Positions 9,274 to 33,440 of a stretch of DNA of 35,336 nt are shown one piece after another. The stretch is from Bacteroidaceae bacterium. Lineage in GTDB: Bacteria > Bacteroidota > Bacteroidia > Bacteroidales > Bacteroidaceae. The notes below the pieces were generated by a model. It ran no database searches and had not been told where the DNA came from. It was given only the letters and a program-made list of their open reading frames with translations. The DNA lies in the NCBI GenBank assembly GCA_024401225.1, contig JAKSLM010000028.1, forward strand, positions 1 through 35,336. Reading direction: 5' to 3'. Both the position numbers and the translations under genes were made by a program. Positions within the stretch are counted from its first letter, which is position 1. Each line of letters begins with the position of its first letter.

Positions 9274-11637
9274 TCATTTTACAAAGAAAACCTTACCTTT
9301 CTTTATTACTATACCCTTTTGATTCTTGCTTACACGAACACCATTAAGATTATATACCTTGATTGAGTCTTTATCAACTGCAATTCCATGTATAACAGAA
9401 GATAGATTCTCCTCTATTTCTTCTGCAACCGAAGCAGGGGCGGTATAGCTGTATGAAATGTCCTCTGTCACATCCTCACCGTTTATATTGAAACTACCTG
9501 CGGCAATGATAACCTCAACAGACACTTCCCCTTCTGCTGCACGTGCTACGGACTTCCAGAACGCCATAAGCTTGGCACGTGCACCCTCTTCGTTGTCAAT
9601 AAAGTTGAACTTTATCGTTACAACGCCATCTTCCTCGCTGATGTCATCCTTACCGGCAGTACCCTTCAATACGCCATCAATCAGCAACTCTGCGCTTGCA
9701 TCCTCGTTCACCTCAAACGTCTTCACTTCGTTCAATGCCAACTTGAACTCTGTTATATCCTCTGCATTCTCCTCGTTGATATCCATGCCTTCTTCTACAA
9801 CTGGTGAGATAACATAAATCACATTTCCATTTTCATCAAGTTCATCAATCCATTTGGCATTGATCTCAAGAACATTCTGTGCACCTGTTCCCATGGATAA
9901 ATCCAAAGTGTAACTTCCTTTCGTGTTGTGACGAGGGAGTTTAAACATAAGAGGCTCTACAAATGGATTTGACGCATCTGTCCATTCATAAATAGAGCCA
10001 TACCATAATACATCCTCGAGATCTAACAAATCTACATAGTAGTTACCTGTACAAGGAAATGCTCCTGCTCCAATCCCAACGCTAAACTCCCCTAAAGTCT
10101 TGCTATGCACGTTGGCCGAGAATTGATAATAGCCTGCCGGGATATTTTCAATTGTAGCTTTATACTCACCATATGATACGTTTAAGAATTCCCAATATTT
10201 TTCAGAATATTCTGTTGGAACCAAAATGTTAAGTGTTGAATCTCGATTCGTCAGATTAAACTCTACCTCTCCAACCGAATATGATTCAAGGTGGAATTGT
10301 TCAAGAATAACCTGCAATTCCCAAAAATTACCTCCAAAACGTTCATCAATATTCGAGTAGAAAGTAAGACGACAATCATGAGGAACCGACAAACGACTTG
10401 TTCCTTTAACCAAAGATGGTGAATAGTGGCTATAGAATGTATATAACTCATATTCAGAAGGTACTGGCATAGGAACAGAGATTTGTTTTCCAGACTCGTA
10501 TTCCAAACAGTATTCGTATTCTCCTGCAGAAAGTTGCATTACAGCTATGTTCGAATCATAAACAAACAATCCTGTAAGAACATTCGTAGAAGGAACTAGT
10601 TCCATTTCTTGCTTGAACACCTCTCCTGTTGTCAGGTTGTGGAAGACTGCAGTTCCTGCTTCATCTTCTTTAAGAAACAAACCTTCGTCATTGTAATCAG
10701 GGTATAGAGTAATGGCATAAATACCTTGATTGTATGTCCAAAGTTCGGGTGTACTCCAACAATTCCAAGATTCACCCCATCCAAGGTTAAGGTGGAATTC
10801 TCCTTCAGAATTATAACCATCAGCAATGAAAGAATGCCCCATGTTGTTATTATCTGTGGCATTTATGATAACTGGTCTTTGCTGATTAAGTTGAGTCTTC
10901 AATGGTTCAACAACATTAAGAAAATCTGTTTGTATAACCTCGGTTAAATATCCAAATCTCTTTTGAATAGCAAAAGATTGGTAATTAAAAAAGGTACCTG
11001 TTTCATCAGAAGAAAAAGAAGCTTGTTGTGCAAAGGCAATAGCTTCGCATAGTTCGGCAGGACTTAAGTTGTCACTCCATCCATTGAAACTATAATCTAC
11101 ATGATATACAGGCATAGGACACGATACTTCACTTGGATCATACCATCTAGTGATATTATTGTGTTCCATCACTCCAGAGTCTGAATATGTTTGGTCATAA
11201 GACACCGTCCAAGGTTTCATGTAGCGATAGTAGTTCACCACCTGAGCTGTGCTGATTGTAGAGCAACCTGCTGGAACATGTACACCATTAATGGTTGGCA
11301 TGAGGTCGTTGTATGGAGCTCCCTGATCCCACGAGGTTGTTATCAGCGGTTCCACAATGGTTGTTGCAGGAGCATGATTCATGCCAGCATTCTTCTTCAC
11401 TCTGTTTACTGGCTTGATGGCATCAAGTGAATCAACAACATACTTGATGAATGGAGGCATATTGTTGAAGTCCACATGGCCAGTACCATGGAAAAGGACA
11501 TCGTCTCCATGTGTGATAGTCCATTCCATTTCATTCTGGTTCAAGGAAACATAGTGTCTCTTATCCTGCGAATAGGATGGAAGAACCAAAATAATTGCCA
11601 AAAGCAGTAGAACCTGCCTAAATATACAATTGTTCAT
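9274..11637 (-). CDS. Secreted C10-family (streptopain-like) cysteine peptidase
   Basis: A 787-residue exported protease. Residues 1-23 are a signal peptide, about 25-95 a propeptide-like region, and about 96-315 the catalytic domain. Cys125 in GCSTISTAQVVNYY aligns with the catalytic Cys of SpeB/prtT-type enzymes (usually GCxATAxAQxMxYY). His268 in GHSFIADGY is the catalytic His, and LGWGESWNCW (284-293) is the Gly-Trp-Gly block of the active site. The Ser-Thr-Ile after Cys125 is an unusual variant. The long C-terminal part has beta-rich repeats and an acidic region, ending in VYNLNGVRVSKNQKG and a short basic tail, the Prevotella-type C-terminal sorting or anchoring tail. It is expected at the surface or in the medium, degrading host or microbial proteins. 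Confidence 0.85.
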   Translation of the reverse strand: MNNCIFRQVLLLLAIILVLPSYSQDKRHYVSLNQNEMEWTITHGDDVLFHGTGHVDFNNMPPFIKYVVDSLDAIKPVNRVKKNAGMNHAPATTIVEPLITTSWDQGAPYNDLMPTINGVHVPAGCSTISTAQVVNYYRYMKPWTVSYDQTYSDSGVMEHNNITRWYDPSEVSCPMPVYHVDYSFNGWSDNLSPAELCEAIAFAQQASFSSDETGTFFNYQSFAIQKRFGYLTEVIQTDFLNVVEPLKTQLNQQRPVIINATDNNNMGHSFIADGYNSEGEFHLNLGWGESWNCWSTPELWTYNQGIYAITLYPDYNDEGLFLKEDEAGTAVFHNLTTGEVFKQEMELVPSTNVLTGLFVYDSNIAVMQLSAGEYEYCLEYESGKQISVPMPVPSEYELYTFYSHYSPSLVKGTSRLSVPHDCRLTFYSNIDERFGGNFWELQVILEQFHLESYSVGEVEFNLTNRDSTLNILVPTEYSEKYWEFLNVSYGEYKATIENIPAGYYQFSANVHSKTLGEFSVGIGAGAFPCTGNYYVDLLDLEDVLWYGSIYEWTDASNPFVEPLMFKLPRHNTKGSYTLDLSMGTGAQNVLEINAKWIDELDENGNVIYVISPVVEEGMDINEENAEDITEFKLALNEVKTFEVNEDASAELLIDGVLKGTAGKDDISEEDGVVTIKFNFIDNEEGARAKLMAFWKSVARAAEGEVSVEVIIAAGSFNINGEDVTEDISYSYTAPASVAEEIEENLSSVIHGIAVDKDSIKVYNLNGVRVSKNQKGIVIKKGKVFFVK

Positions 11638-25327: not shown

Positions 25328-26938
25328 ATGCAAACTATGCAGACTAAATACATATTCGTCACAGGAGGTGTAGTATCATCGCTCGGCAAGGGCATCATAT
25401 CCTCATCCATCGGCAAACTCCTCCAGGCACGCGGCTACCGCATCACCATTCAGAAGTTCGACCCTTACATCAATATCGACCCAGGCACGCTCAATCCTTA
25501 CGAGCACGGCGAATGCTACGTGACCAATGATGGCATGGAGACCGACCTCGACCTCGGCCACTACGAGCGCTTCACAGGCATACGCACCACCCGCAACAAC
25601 TCTGTCACTACAGGACGCATCTACAAGACGGTCATCGATCGCGAGCGCCATGGCGACTATCTGGGCAAGACCATCCAGGTGGTGCCTCACATCACCGATG
25701 AGATCAAGCGCCGCATGCTGCGCCAGGAGGATAGCACCGACTACGACTTCATCATCACCGAGGTGGGTGGAACGATAGGCGACATCGAGAGCGCACCATT
25801 CATGGAGGCCATCCGCCAGCTGCGCTGGGAACTGGGCCGAAATGCCGTGAGCGTGCACCTCACCTACGTGCCTTACCTCAAGGCTGCTGGCGAGCTGAAG
25901 ACCAAGCCTACGCAGCACTCCGTGAAGGAGATGCAGGGCATGGGTATCCAGCCCGACATACTCATACTTCGTACCGAGCTTCACCTCTCCGATGGCATAC
26001 GCAGCAAGGTGGCATCGTTCTGCAACGTCGACCTCGAGTGCGTGGTGCAGAGCGAGGACTTGCCAAGCATCTACGAAGTGCCAGTCAACATGCAGAAGCA
26101 GGGACTCGATGCAGCCATCCTGCGCAAGTTCGCCATCCCTGTGGGCGAGACTCCAGCCATGCTGCCTTGGCATGAGTTCCTCAACAAGCAGAAGACGGCT
26201 ACCACCATCGTGCGCATCGGCCTTGTGGGCAAGTACGACCTTCAGGATGCCTACAAGAGCATACGCGAAAGCCTCAACCTTGCCGGCATCTACTGCGGCG
26301 CCAAGGTCAAGATGGAATTCATCAATAGCGAAGCCATCACGAAGCAGAACGTAGGCGAACTGCTGGAAGGCTTCGCAGGCGTGCTCATCTGCCCAGGCTT
26401 CGGCCAGCGAGGCATAGAGGGCAAGATCATTGCTGCCGAGTACACGCGCACCCACGACATCCCTACGTTCGGCATTTGCCTTGGCATGCAGATGATGGTC
26501 ATCGAGTTTGCACGCAACGTGCTCGGCCTCTCCGATGCCAACAGCCGCGAGATGGATGCCGACACTCCTCACAATGTTATTGACATCATGGAGGACCAGA
26601 AGAACATCACCAACATGGGTGGCACCATGCGTCTCGGCGCCTATGCCTGCGAGCTTCGCGAAGGCAGCAAGGTAGCGTCCATATACAAAGAAGCGATGAT
26701 CAGTGAGCGTCACCGTCATCGCTATGAATTCAATAATGATTATCTTACCGACTATGAGTCGCACGGCATGCAATGCGTAGGTACCAACCCTGAGTCGCAC
26801 CTCGTGGAGATTGTCGAGATCCCTGACAATCGCTGGTACATCGGCACTCAGTTCCACCCTGAGTATTCAAGCACCGTGCTTCGTCCTCATCCGTTGTTCG
26901 TATCCTTCATCTCTGCCACTTTGCAGTCATCCTGCTGA
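25328..26938 (+). CDS. pyrG: CTP synthase
   Basis: PyrG aminates UTP to CTP using glutamine and ATP. The synthetase half shows KYIFVTGGVVSSLGKGI, the P-loop, and FDPYINIDPGTLNPYEHGE. The class I glutamine amidotransferase half has Cys384 in FGICLGMQ and the His/Glu pair in GTQFHPEYSS near the C-terminus. At 536 residues it has normal length. The start may be ATG 25328 or ATG 25337. It follows the PurF-like gene by 6 bp, so it is probably co-transcribed with the nitrogen operon. Its last 52 bp overlap the convergent DUF4435 gene. Confidence 0.96.
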   Translation: MQTMQTKYIFVTGGVVSSLGKGIISSSIGKLLQARGYRITIQKFDPYINIDPGTLNPYEHGECYVTNDGMETDLDLGHYERFTGIRTTRNNSVTTGRIYKTVIDRERHGDYLGKTIQVVPHITDEIKRRMLRQEDSTDYDFIITEVGGTIGDIESAPFMEAIRQLRWELGRNAVSVHLTYVPYLKAAGELKTKPTQHSVKEMQGMGIQPDILILRTELHLSDGIRSKVASFCNVDLECVVQSEDLPSIYEVPVNMQKQGLDAAILRKFAIPVGETPAMLPWHEFLNKQKTATTIVRIGLVGKYDLQDAYKSIRESLNLAGIYCGAKVKMEFINSEAITKQNVGELLEGFAGVLICPGFGQRGIEGKIIAAEYTRTHDIPTFGICLGMQMMVIEFARNVLGLSDANSREMDADTPHNVIDIMEDQKNITNMGGTMRLGAYACELREGSKVASIYKEAMISERHRHRYEFNNDYLTDYESHGMQCVGTNPESHLVEIVEIPDNRWYIGTQFHPEYSSTVLRPHPLFVSFISATLQSSC

Positions 26939-27945
26939 TTGCTGGCAGATGAGCTGAGTGCGAGCACACGCTCCACGTGCTGGCATATCTGCCGGTACTG
27001 AGGCGAATCCTTGAACATCGTGTTCCTGCGCATCATGACAACCACAGGTTGCTGTGAGCGCATGTAGCACGTCATCTCATTGTCCATCTGAGTCGTGTTC
27101 CTGCCAGCCAGGCGCTTGATGTCCTTCTCGCGCTCACGCCTCAACACCGTGGCTACAGGTTCGATGACACCTCCCACTACATTGTCAAACAGGTTGTGCC
27201 CCTGCAAGTAGAGGTACACGTTCTGAGGCGTCACGCCCAGTCGTGCCAGGTCGGCCTTCAGCGGCTTTATCTTCCCCTTTGCCTCCGGGTAGTGGCTCTG
27301 CATCCATGCCACGCGGCGATTCACGTTGTGTCGCAGGCGGTCCAGAGCCTCCGTAGGGTTGAAGATGTTCACCTTCTCGGGCGTTATGAAGTTGTTCAGC
27401 TTGTTGAGGGGCATCTCCGAAAAGCGGTCATGCCTGTACAGCCACATCGCCCACACGAAGAGGTCGTAGACTGCCTCCGAATATGCCTTCAGGTACTCCT
27501 CAAAATCGAATATCGTCCTATCGTTGAGCGTAGCCATCACACACACATTGTGCAGGCTTGGAGCCCAGCATTGCAGGTTCTCGATGGCATAGGCATAGGT
27601 ATGCACCACGTACGGATTGTCAAGCATCAGTCGCGAGTTGCGCGTTGCACCCTGCAGCAAGTAGTCGATATCGGCATCCACGCATGCTATCATGTACTCA
27701 CCCAGACTGTCGCCCAGACGGTTCATCATAGCCGTCTTCTTGCCTCGGTTGAGATTGGTCTTCGAAGGCAACATTACCTCAAACACGCGCTCCTCGTTCT
27801 CATACTGCGACAGAATGCTTCGCCAGAAGAAGATGTCATCGTACGATTCCACGTAGGCGACGATCTTCTTCACCTTCTTCTTCTGCAACTTGTTGGCAGC
27901 ATTGAGGTATCCGGAGTTGAGGTATGATGATAACTGTTTTGCCAT
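26887..27945 (-). CDS. DUF4435 protein with TOPRIM-like active site (AriB-like)
   Basis: A 352-residue cytoplasmic protein with a DUF4435-type N-terminal half. The metal-binding pattern of a TOPRIM fold is visible: Glu33 with Asp36/37 in YVESYDDIFFW, then Asp89-x-Asp91 in IACVDADIDYLL. In PARIS anti-phage systems the AriB effector has this domain and acts as a toxic nuclease released by the ATPase AriA when phage anti-restriction proteins appear. The C-terminal half (about 200-330) is basic and could bind nucleic acid. It lies 29 bp after the ATPase gene on the same transcript. Its 3' end overlaps pyrG by 52 bp, tail to tail. The PARIS role is inferred from domain pairing, not shown. Confidence 0.7.
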   Translation of the reverse strand: MAKQLSSYLNSGYLNAANKLQKKKVKKIVAYVESYDDIFFWRSILSQYENEERVFEVMLPSKTNLNRGKKTAMMNRLGDSLGEYMIACVDADIDYLLQGATRNSRLMLDNPYVVHTYAYAIENLQCWAPSLHNVCVMATLNDRTIFDFEEYLKAYSEAVYDLFVWAMWLYRHDRFSEMPLNKLNNFITPEKVNIFNPTEALDRLRHNVNRRVAWMQSHYPEAKGKIKPLKADLARLGVTPQNVYLYLQGHNLFDNVVGGVIEPVATVLRREREKDIKRLAGRNTTQMDNEMTCYMRSQQPVVVMMRRNTMFKDSPQYRQICQHVERVLALSSSASNQQDDCKVAEMKDTNNG

Positions 27946-27954
27946 CTATTGTAT

Positions 27955-27983
27955 TACTTCTTACTTCATACTTCTTACTTACT
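27955..27983. repeat. Simple tandem repeat between ATPase and DUF4435 genes
   Basis: TTACTTCTTACTTCATACTT and CTTACTTACT form a short imperfect tandem tract that also supplies the last codons of the ATPase gene (SK, then TAA at 27975-27977). Confidence 0.6.
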
Positions 27984-28808
27984 GGAGATCTCATTCACTT
28001 CAGTCACATTGCCCATCCATCCGTCCATGATGAGGGCAGGCGAATGGGTCGACAGGATGATCTGCGCGTTAGGATTGAGCTGGCGTATGAGGGCTATGAG
28101 CTTCTGCTGCCACTCGATGTGCAGACTTATCTCAGGCTCATCCATCAGCAGGGCATAAGGCTCCTGGTTCTCCACCAGCACGGTGAGCAGGATGACGAGC
28201 ATCTGCTTCTCGCCCGAGCTGAGCTGATAAGGGGTCAGCACCTCATCGCCCTGGATGAACTGTATCTCATTGCTCTTGCGGTCTATGACCTTGTGAGTCT
28301 CCACAAACATCTCGTCCATCATGTCCTGGAACTGCACCTTAGGCACACTCACCTTGGCTGCCTCCAGCTGGTCGTCAGCATTGCCGCTGGTCAGGAGGGC
28401 TATGATGCGGTTGCCCATGTTCACCTGATAGTCGAGGTAGCGCTTCTGCAGGCGGTATATCTGCCAGTCGAGCTCAGTCTTCACGCGTGAGTCGGCAAGC
28501 TTCTCGAGCAGGTCGCTGTTGAGCAGCGGCTTGTCGAACGAACGTATGAGGTCAAACTTTATCCATGTTGCATCCTCTGGGTACAATCGTATTGCCACGC
28601 CATGAGGAGCCTCGCCTGGGGTCATCTCACCCTTCTCAATCTTCAGCAGATTGACAGCCGAATGGTTGATGATGGTACTCTTGCCCACACCGTTTATGCC
28701 ACTCAGGATGTTGACATCAGGCTGGAGCTCCCACTTTATGTGGCGCCCACCCTTCCACAGAGCCTTGATCTCTATGCTCTTTATGTAGTCTGCACGCTTT
28801 TCCATCAT
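27975..28808 (-). CDS. Compact ABC/SMC-type AAA ATPase (AriA-like)
   Basis: A 277-residue ATPase with Walker A GINGVGKST (37-45), ABC signature LSSGEKQ (196-202), Walker B ALLMDEPE (219-226) and the switch histidine in STHSP (253-257). It is thus an AAA_15/AAA_21 OLD-like ATPase without a fused TOPRIM domain, and the partner gene next to it supplies one. A short coiled region lies around 100-160. The start ATG overlaps the stop of the cyclophilin gene (ATGA at 28805-28808); a second ATG at 28805 is also possible. The ATPase is shorter than I would expect for AriA. It could be a reduced PARIS, another ATPase-nuclease defence pair, or a housekeeping pair. Confidence 0.75.
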   Translation of the reverse strand: MMEKRADYIKSIEIKALWKGGRHIKWELQPDVNILSGINGVGKSTIINHSAVNLLKIEKGEMTPGEAPHGVAIRLYPEDATWIKFDLIRSFDKPLLNSDLLEKLADSRVKTELDWQIYRLQKRYLDYQVNMGNRIIALLTSGNADDQLEAAKVSVPKVQFQDMMDEMFVETHKVIDRKSNEIQFIQGDEVLTPYQLSSGEKQMLVILLTVLVENQEPYALLMDEPEISLHIEWQQKLIALIRQLNPNAQIILSTHSPALIMDGWMGNVTEVNEISSK

Positions 28809-29512
28809 TTCCTTACTTTATACTTTTTAGTCACTTTAGCCTTAATGATCCTTATGTCCTCCAGCGGACGGTCGTTCTTGTCGGTCTCCACCACCTGAAT
28901 GGCATCGACCACATCCATGCCGCTCACCACCTGTCCGAACACCGTGTAGCTGCCATCCAGGTGGGGTGCTCCGCCCTCGGTCTTGTACACCTCGCGCATG
29001 GCCTCTGTGAGTTTGAAGGTACCTCCAGTCCACTCGTCTATGCGCTTCTGGGTGCGGTCCAGCTCCTCATCGGTGAAGGTGCGTCCTGTCACTATCGTGA
29101 ACTGTGTGGACGACGATGCCTTCTGTGGGTTCACATCATCACCCTCGCGTGCGGCGTTCAGCATACCACGGCGATGGAAGAACTCCGGCACACGAAACTC
29201 GGCAGGAATCTCATCGCCTGGCTTCTCGTCGCCCTCACCCAGCAGCTCGCCCGGCTTGGCATGCTTGCTGAGGCGGTCGCCCGTCTGGATGATGAACTTA
29301 TTTATCACGCGATGCCACAGCACTCCGTTGTACGTGCCAGCCTTCACCTGTCGGATGAAGTTGTCGCGATGCAATGGAGTCTCGTTGAGCAGTTCAACGA
29401 CTATGGTACCCTTATCCGTCTTGAAAGTCACCTGTGCCCTCTGTTCCTTCTGCGCCATGGCCGTCATGCATGCCATGAGCACGAGCACCGTGATCGAAGC
29501 TATTCTCTTCAT
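28805..29512 (-). CDS. Periplasmic peptidyl-prolyl cis-trans isomerase (cyclophilin type)
   Basis: A 235-residue exported cyclophilin that catalyses proline isomerisation during protein folding. Signal peptide MKRIASITVLVLMACMTAMA is followed by the cyclophilin core: LWHRVINKFIIQTGD, SSSTQFTIVTG and YTVFGQVVSGMDVVDAI. An insertion around residues 130-180 (FTDEELDRTQKRIDEWTGG) is typical of Bacteroidetes members. It lies 23 bp after the beta-galactosidase gene and overlaps the ATPase start by a few bases, so all four genes appear to form one operon. Confidence 0.9.
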   Translation of the reverse strand: MKRIASITVLVLMACMTAMAQKEQRAQVTFKTDKGTIVVELLNETPLHRDNFIRQVKAGTYNGVLWHRVINKFIIQTGDRLSKHAKPGELLGEGDEKPGDEIPAEFRVPEFFHRRGMLNAAREGDDVNPQKASSSTQFTIVTGRTFTDEELDRTQKRIDEWTGGTFKLTEAMREVYKTEGGAPHLDGSYTVFGQVVSGMDVVDAIQVVETDKNDRPLEDIRIIKAKVTKKYKVRK

Positions 29513-29535: not shown

Positions 29536-33391
<3,856 letters not shown>

Positions 33392-33440
33392 AGATAAAGT
33401 CACATTTTTTTTACGTTACAGATTCATTATGCCATTCAGC

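Follow-up and report, generated by a model that had tools for sequence, protein, structure and literature searches.

A PARIS-type ATPase and DUF4435 gene pair carried by most examined genomes of the Bacteroidaceae

The ATPase and DUF4435 genes

The stretch of DNA analyzed here (the window) comprises the 35,336 nucleotides of contig JAKSLM010000028.1 from a Bacteroidaceae bacterium (GenBank assembly GCA_024401225.1). On its minus strand, a gene for a short AriA-like ABC ATPase is followed by a gene for a DUF4435 protein resembling the TOPRIM nuclease AriB (Table 1). An earlier note, made from the letters of the sequence, had proposed that the two form a PARIS-like pair, and this is borne out by PADLOC, Pfam, and the predicted folds. 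The PARIS detection rule given in PMC9122126 asks for an AAA_15 or AAA_21 ATPase gene beside a DUF4435 gene, with published scores of 32/27/27. The adjacent genes of the window reach 59.4 bits for AAA_15 (E 6e-16), 67.2 bits for AAA_21 (E 3e-18), and 150.9 bits for DUF4435 (E 6e-44), and by their sequence they are classed as a PARIS-type pair under that rule. The pair is a mainly vertically inherited core module of its host family and not a captured island, as indicated by its distribution, the grouping of core copies in trees, the splits shared with RpoB, purifying selection, and the joint absence of the two genes.

The ATPase contains a Walker A motif (GINGVGKST), a signature motif (LSSGEKQ), a Walker B motif (LLMDEPE, within ALLMDEPE), and an H-loop (STHSP), the first three as the earlier note had listed them. 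AriA is its best match among the PADLOC profiles (2.4e-54, far beyond chance), with the PtuA profiles scoring lower, and also its best predicted-fold match, the model having the ATPase fold of AriA; the ATPase and nuclease chains were each modeled singly. The motif residues are invariant in the aligned rows, apart from one signature Ser that is nearly invariant. Strict motif patterns fit 105 of the 122 family ATPase rows. Inspected by eye, the other 17 have GKTT in place of GKST (12 rows), GSGE or LSNGE (two rows), THA for THS (one row), a fragment at a contig end (L164), or an altered Walker B (genome G007). The ATPase had been thought unusually short, a claim that is rejected, as the PADLOC AriA model PDLC04164 spans 253 positions and 16 of 18 accessory or other-family ATPases are 244–307 residues long, the other two having 360 and 443.

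AriB is the best PADLOC profile match of the DUF4435 protein (2.2e-54, again far beyond chance) and its best predicted-fold match. Numbered in the full open reading frame (ORF), the TOPRIM acidic set consists of Glu33, Asp37, Asp90, Asp92, and Asp94, together with a Gly68-Lys69 loop; Glu33 was placed correctly in the earlier note, and its Asp89 and Asp91 are one position too low. All of these residues and Ser34 are invariant across the aligned rows. In a pattern check that allowed any position in the ORF, 122 of 123 family DUF4435 rows have the Glu and Asp patterns, the exception (L126) being an ORF without its N terminus. The catalytic Glu and Asp residues expected of an AriB-like TOPRIM nuclease are intact. 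As the metal-site residues are kept, the evidence that the note had named as counting against it, a fold lacking the TOPRIM metal site, does not arise. According to PMC12409363, Glu26 and lysines 60 and 64 are required in AriB, whose active site is like that of RNase M5, an enzyme acting in ribosomal RNA maturation. Glu33 and the invariant Gly-Lys loop appear to occupy the points of the fold order that match this glutamate and these lysines.

Table 1. Features of the locus, in window coordinates
Feature	Positions	Strand	Size	Basis
DUF4435 / AriB-like TOPRIM nuclease	26887..27945	minus	352 aa	ORF + Pfam
Short AriA-like ABC ATPase	27975..28808	minus	277 aa	ORF + Pfam
Cyclophilin (PPIase), probable signal peptide (by eye from sequence)	28805..29512	minus		ORF + Pfam
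GH2 beta-galactosidase, probable first gene of four-gene run	29536..33330	minus		ORF + Pfam
Bacteroidota-type promoter match TTTG-N19-TAACTTTG	33362..33392	minus		Pattern scan, presumed consensus
ORF taken to be pyrG (CTP synthase), convergent, outside module	25328..26938	plus		ORF; name presumed

Distribution and descent of the pair

The host family is taken to be the GTDB-style Bacteroidaceae, which includes Bacteroides, Phocaeicola, Prevotella, Paraprevotella, and relatives. The window DUF4435 protein matched 285 of 301 host-family genomes at E 1e-10, a distribution that is not the accessory, patchy one typical of, though not strictly defining for, PARIS. Matches were present in 161 of the 168 high-quality genomes and in 28 of the 30 genera, usually as one copy (two matches in 12 genomes). 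In a draw of 198 genomes from the order, 16 matched at 1e-5, comprising 3 in the host family and 13 of the 195 elsewhere. Searching with the whole Pfam DUF4435 family found 39 of these 198 genomes, 36 of them outside the host family. This exceeds the 13 found with the window protein because diverged and fused DUF4435 forms exist, and the contrast between family and order therefore concerns this orthologue, not DUF4435 at large.

For both genes, 62 family genomes were picked by hand (one from each of 30 genera, the 16 that had no match, the two-copy genomes, and extra genomes of genus g3), and the ATPase was found in 47 and DUF4435 in 46, the single mismatch being G275, where the ATPase lies at a contig end. 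Both genes are missing from 15 of the 62; nine of these genomes are less than 90% complete, where joint absence may reflect assembly gaps, and six are at least 90% complete. Among the named loci, which are the best 80 of 178 and come from uncultured Bacteroidaceae, Prevotellaceae, Paraprevotella, Alloprevotella, and others, the ATPase and DUF4435 genes share one strand in 79, with a median intergenic gap of 22 nt (50 nt or less in 58 loci, more than 100 nt in 13). One genome, G248 (77% complete, 2% contamination), holds two core-type pairs on contigs C5 and C3 (L078 and L079), representing either a duplication or a mixed bin.

Quick trees were built from 60 DUF4435 rows and 61 ATPase rows, for which 9 of the 13 hits outside the family were used; the DUF4435 tree omits two accessory rows in which this ORF is truncated. 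In both trees 42 core rows lie on one side of a branch, with a support of 99.8 for the ATPase and 93, under the 95 mark, for DUF4435, and the accessory second copies and other-family copies fall outside this core group. The window copy is positioned within the core group next to same-genus copies in both trees. G007, of genus g8, lies outside it with one accessory copy on long branches.

Trees of the pair and of RpoB were compared for 27 genomes, with G007 dropped and G014 representing the genus of the source genome, which itself is outside the RpoB tree, a contig end having truncated its rpoB. They have 12 of 24 splits in common, compared with a mean of 0.25 and a maximum of 3 in 2000 random relabellings, and the Mantel r values are 0.58 for the ATPase and 0.69 for DUF4435 (p 2e-4). 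With PyrG (23 genomes after partial or missing PyrG was dropped), 3 of 20 splits are common and the r values are 0.41 and 0.53, respectively; PyrG is poor as a species marker by this count, and RpoB was therefore taken as the second marker. Mostly vertical descent of the pair, with noise or some transfer, fits these comparisons best.

The mean identity in the RpoB set is 60% for the ATPase and 49% for DUF4435, compared with 83% for RpoB. Among near relatives the ratio of nonsynonymous to synonymous substitution rates (dN/dS) is 0.025–0.049 for the ATPase and 0.051–0.069 for DUF4435, each in four of seven genome pairs, and for neighboring genes it is 0.025–0.040 (meaB) and 0.051–0.104 (MscS). 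These ratios are rough, because synonymous sites are saturated in the other genome pairs and several of the dS values obtained are above 1. Both genes are under strong purifying selection. The earlier note had stated that housekeeping-like conservation at the same place in all related genomes would refute it; most related genomes do carry the pair under strong purifying selection, but not at the same place. Therefore the idea of a captured islet fails and a family-wide core module replaces it.

Surrounding genes and diverged relatives

In the source genome the pair is the distal part of a four-gene run with a 23-nt spacing between lacZ and ppi, a 4-nt overlap between ppi and the ATPase gene, and 29 nt between the ATPase and DUF4435 genes. 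The 3' end of the DUF4435 gene overlaps the convergent ORF, presumably pyrG, by 52 nt. Pfam places Pro_isomerase (E 5e-39) in the cyclophilin and GH2 domains in the beta-galactosidase. A promoter pattern of what we take to be the Bacteroidota consensus has 3 matches in the window compared with a shuffle mean of 0.28; one lies ~30 nt upstream of the beta-galactosidase start and none within the four-gene run. A terminator scan of the window gave 2 sites, both on the plus strand and fewer than the shuffle mean of 5.1. The lacZ-ppi-ATPase-nuclease run is likely to be co-transcribed as one operon in the source genome, because the spacings are short, a promoter match precedes the first gene, none lies inside the run, and the terminators are on the plus strand only. 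A weak DUF4435-like fragment is also present at a contig start in this genome (L002, G000:C79:14-223), with a score of 21.5 bits that is under the cut-off.

The coupling to the cyclophilin gene that the earlier note described is present in the source genome as the 4-nt overlap, but the arrangement does not extend to relatives. At E 1e-15, with both strands considered, 0 of 116 loci had a relative of ppi, pyrG, or lacZ next to the pair within flanks of ~4–10 kb, some ended by contig ends. A conserved tie to any of these genes is rejected on this count, and the cyclophilin/lacZ context looks private to the source genome. The same-genus relatives G014, G250, and G294 have the pair in other surroundings. 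In genera g3, g4, g5, g10, and g27 a recurrent block consists of a long protein gene (alpha-2-macroglobulin in an annotated Bacteroides finegoldii record), DUF1573, meaB, often EamA, the pair, and often MscS. The suggestion of the earlier note that the pair adjoins ordinary genes and is possibly domesticated is supported. The block is not universal in g3, since for L210 and L211 meaB is located at another place. In four g3 genomes that lack the pair, meaB and DUF1573 are retained and different genes follow meaB; the same holds for G210, which carries little weight because its relative G013 has the pair elsewhere. In G059 (at least 90% complete), meaB, EamA, and MscS are consecutive on a 4.3-kb contig with the pair gone, giving an empty site. 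Among the loci compared, no functional partner gene is fixed across genera beside the pair.

Accessory ATPase/DUF4435 pairs occur in family genomes that also hold the core pair (L068-L077). They are sporadic, and a few adjoin mobile-type or capsule-type genes; VapE-like, NOV_C/Sacsin-like, and sugar-polymer genes were among 10 nearby proteins scanned. By eye, many of them have a TxGCxQCLxY-like nuclease loop, compared with RGKKTALMN in core copies. The DUF4435 query has only distant matches (1e-39 to 1e-45) in all five listed genomes of genus g8, and in the one read, G007, the divergent pair (L057, 8781-10985) has an ATPase ORF of 379 residues with DEAD instead of DEPE. At L082 (G412, 9335-10423) a DUF4435 gene ~35% identical to that of the window had no matching ATPase within the 20-kb stretch. 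In several other families of the order, 14 single ORFs of 519–545 residues contain most or all of the DUF4435 domain (G404, G464, G359, G488, G387, G420, G408, G321, G328, G434, G441, G325, G438, and G323:C20; loci L267-L279). The five that were read (L267, L268, L269, L272, and L274) have an ABC ATPase part fused to a TOPRIM part, and such AriAB-like fusions may be widely conserved in those families. A core DUF4435 profile gave no hit in 15 loci with diverged or fused forms or in L080, and a second run on 7 of the 15 confirmed that it does not detect them.

The DUF4435 protein had no match among 50,697 phage records at E 1e-5, and viral contigs gave one distant match (23%). Among 72,556 plasmid records there were 11 matches, two at 46–48% identity and nine distant (20–21%). 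The two closer ones, labeled as plasmids in PLSDB, hold a core DUF4435 gene: NZ_OY725943.1 (L242), from B. finegoldii, includes the meaB block and looks like a piece of chromosome, and OY726067.1 (L243) has no annotation there. The ATPase matched 9 phage records, all below 60% identity. Carriage on mobile elements is rejected on these record searches.

Possible function and relation to known systems

PARIS is characterized by an AriA hexamer holding AriB, by phage anti-restriction proteins as triggers of an abortive defense, and by cleavage of tRNA once the nuclease is freed. The conserved parts of the pair fit the design of Escherichia coli PARIS (PMC11455837), in which an ATPase holds the TOPRIM protein, and by analogy with that system we infer sequestration, release, tRNA cutting, and an immune role. 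The AriA-like ATPase would form an ATP-bound oligomer that probably holds the AriB-like protein inactive until the ATPase is changed by a trigger, for which a phage protein is the most likely candidate, and the nuclease is freed. The freed nuclease would then dimerize and cut RNA, plausibly the anticodon stems of a few tRNAs, stopping growth and phage production. We assign a probability of about 0.55 to the reading that this ATPase guard and TOPRIM RNase serve as fixed innate immunity. Among the 22 distinct tRNAs read from the host genome (84% complete), the E. coli site UAAUCA occurs at 36-41 in tRNA-Asn(GUU) alone, with tRNA-Lys(UUU) reading UAAUGU; if the E. coli rule (UAAUC|A) held, tRNA-Asn(GUU) would be the predicted best-matching target. 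A bolder version, toward which we are tentative and somewhat skeptical, is that a PARIS-type tRNase alarm became fixed in the ancestor of the Bacteroidaceae and is now core-genome innate immunity, with the shortened ATPase perhaps monitoring a conserved process of the host, such as restriction or the integrity of tRNA or translation, rather than a single phage protein.

Several observations weigh against an immune guard of mainly vertical descent. Near-universal presence and slow turnover are unlike typical defense systems, and Rousset et al. found ariAB in 5.2% of genomes, as reported in PMC9122126. The ATPase is without ~170 residues that precede the signature motif in E. coli AriA, and therefore trigger sensing and assembly may differ; two family ATPases are even shorter, with 227 (G004) and 225 (L157) residues. 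Some pair splits conflict with equally supported marker splits, for RpoB 2 of 7 at a support of 95, 4 of 12 at 90, and 7 of 15 at 80, and for PyrG 2 of 5, 6 of 9, and 11 of 14, respectively. Conservation is higher in the would-be sensor than in the nuclease, the opposite of what an arms race might produce, although this order fails to separate the readings because accessory pairs show it too (57 of 66 comparisons). In the literature searched, we found no experiment on this branch that addressed phage protection, toxicity, or RNA cutting.

The main rival, which is possible but on balance doubtful, is that the pair is domesticated and non-immune, acting as an ATP-gated TOPRIM RNase in RNA maturation or quality control, or as a brake on translation during stress. 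Its presence in most family genomes, usually as a single copy of largely vertical descent under purifying selection like that of its neighbors, would be expected of such a gene pair, as would the recurrent chromosomal block of Bacteroides-type genomes, the lack of matches to the DUF4435 protein in the phage records, and the RNase M5-like active site of AriB. However, both genes are absent from six genomes that are at least 90% complete, and the pair is therefore probably not essential; it also evolves faster (about 49–61% mean identity) than PyrG (75%) or RpoB, and has no partner fixed across genera. That this orthologue was found in one family is odd for basic RNA maturation.

Strict pairing, gene order, and joint absence could also be explained by a toxin-antitoxin-like addiction module, with the ATPase as antitoxin and the TOPRIM protein as toxin, kept without present benefit because a cell that lost only the ATPase would be harmed. 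This is unlikely, as joint absence and the empty site of G059 show that the pair can be shed, both genes are under strong purifying selection, and deletion of either gene was non-toxic in E. coli B185 according to PMC9122126. It is very improbable that an ordinary accessory PARIS system was recently captured into the lacZ-ppi operon of the source strain; the operon arrangement is seen in no relative and accessory PARIS-like pairs do exist in some family members, but the window copy groups with same-genus core copies, and the same-genus relatives hold the pair in other surroundings. A captured defense islet is rejected on the distribution, the core and accessory trees, and the RpoB comparison.

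What is new here is the distribution, with the pair carried by most family genomes as a core rather than an accessory locus. Defense surveys treat PARIS as accessory. Nowhere in the open literature searched did we find PARIS described as a core system of the Bacteroidaceae; the main texts of PMC11834463 and PMC13356809 do not mention PARIS, and PMC12135933 lists it among the predicted systems of a Bacteroides strain. Much of the high prevalence of PARIS reported in human-gut Bacteroidales could be due to the core locus. If so, that figure would largely count one inherited locus and not frequent gain of mobile defense, statistics on PARIS prevalence and mobility would need correcting, and either innate immunity or an RNA-cutting function would be a fixed part of a dominant gut family. 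The pair is small, self-contained, and present in culturable Bacteroides (e.g. B. finegoldii), making it directly testable, with the six pair-less genomes, including the G059 site between the usual neighbors, as natural controls.

Like PARIS of the E. coli B185 type, the window pair has an ABC ATPase gene adjoining a DUF4435 TOPRIM gene, and both proteins have their best fold matches there. In contrast to that system, which is scattered or mobile, the core pair is present in most genomes of one family with largely vertical descent, and its ATPase is shorter. It resembles PDLC04164 and the accessory Bacteroidales pairs in having a short ATPase before DUF4435 on one strand, and differs from the accessory pairs in forming a separate group in trees, the latter being sporadic and often having another nuclease loop. 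PtuA ATPases of Septu and retrons Eco7/Ec78/Ec83 have an HNH nuclease or a retron as partner, whereas the window ATPase neighbors DUF4435 and the cyclophilin and scores lower with PtuA. An OLD-family nuclease is one fused protein, and RNase M5 is not known to have an ATPase partner. The fused ATPase-DUF4435 proteins (~520–545 residues) of other families in the order have the same two kinds of domain but in a single gene, too diverged for the core DUF4435 profile.

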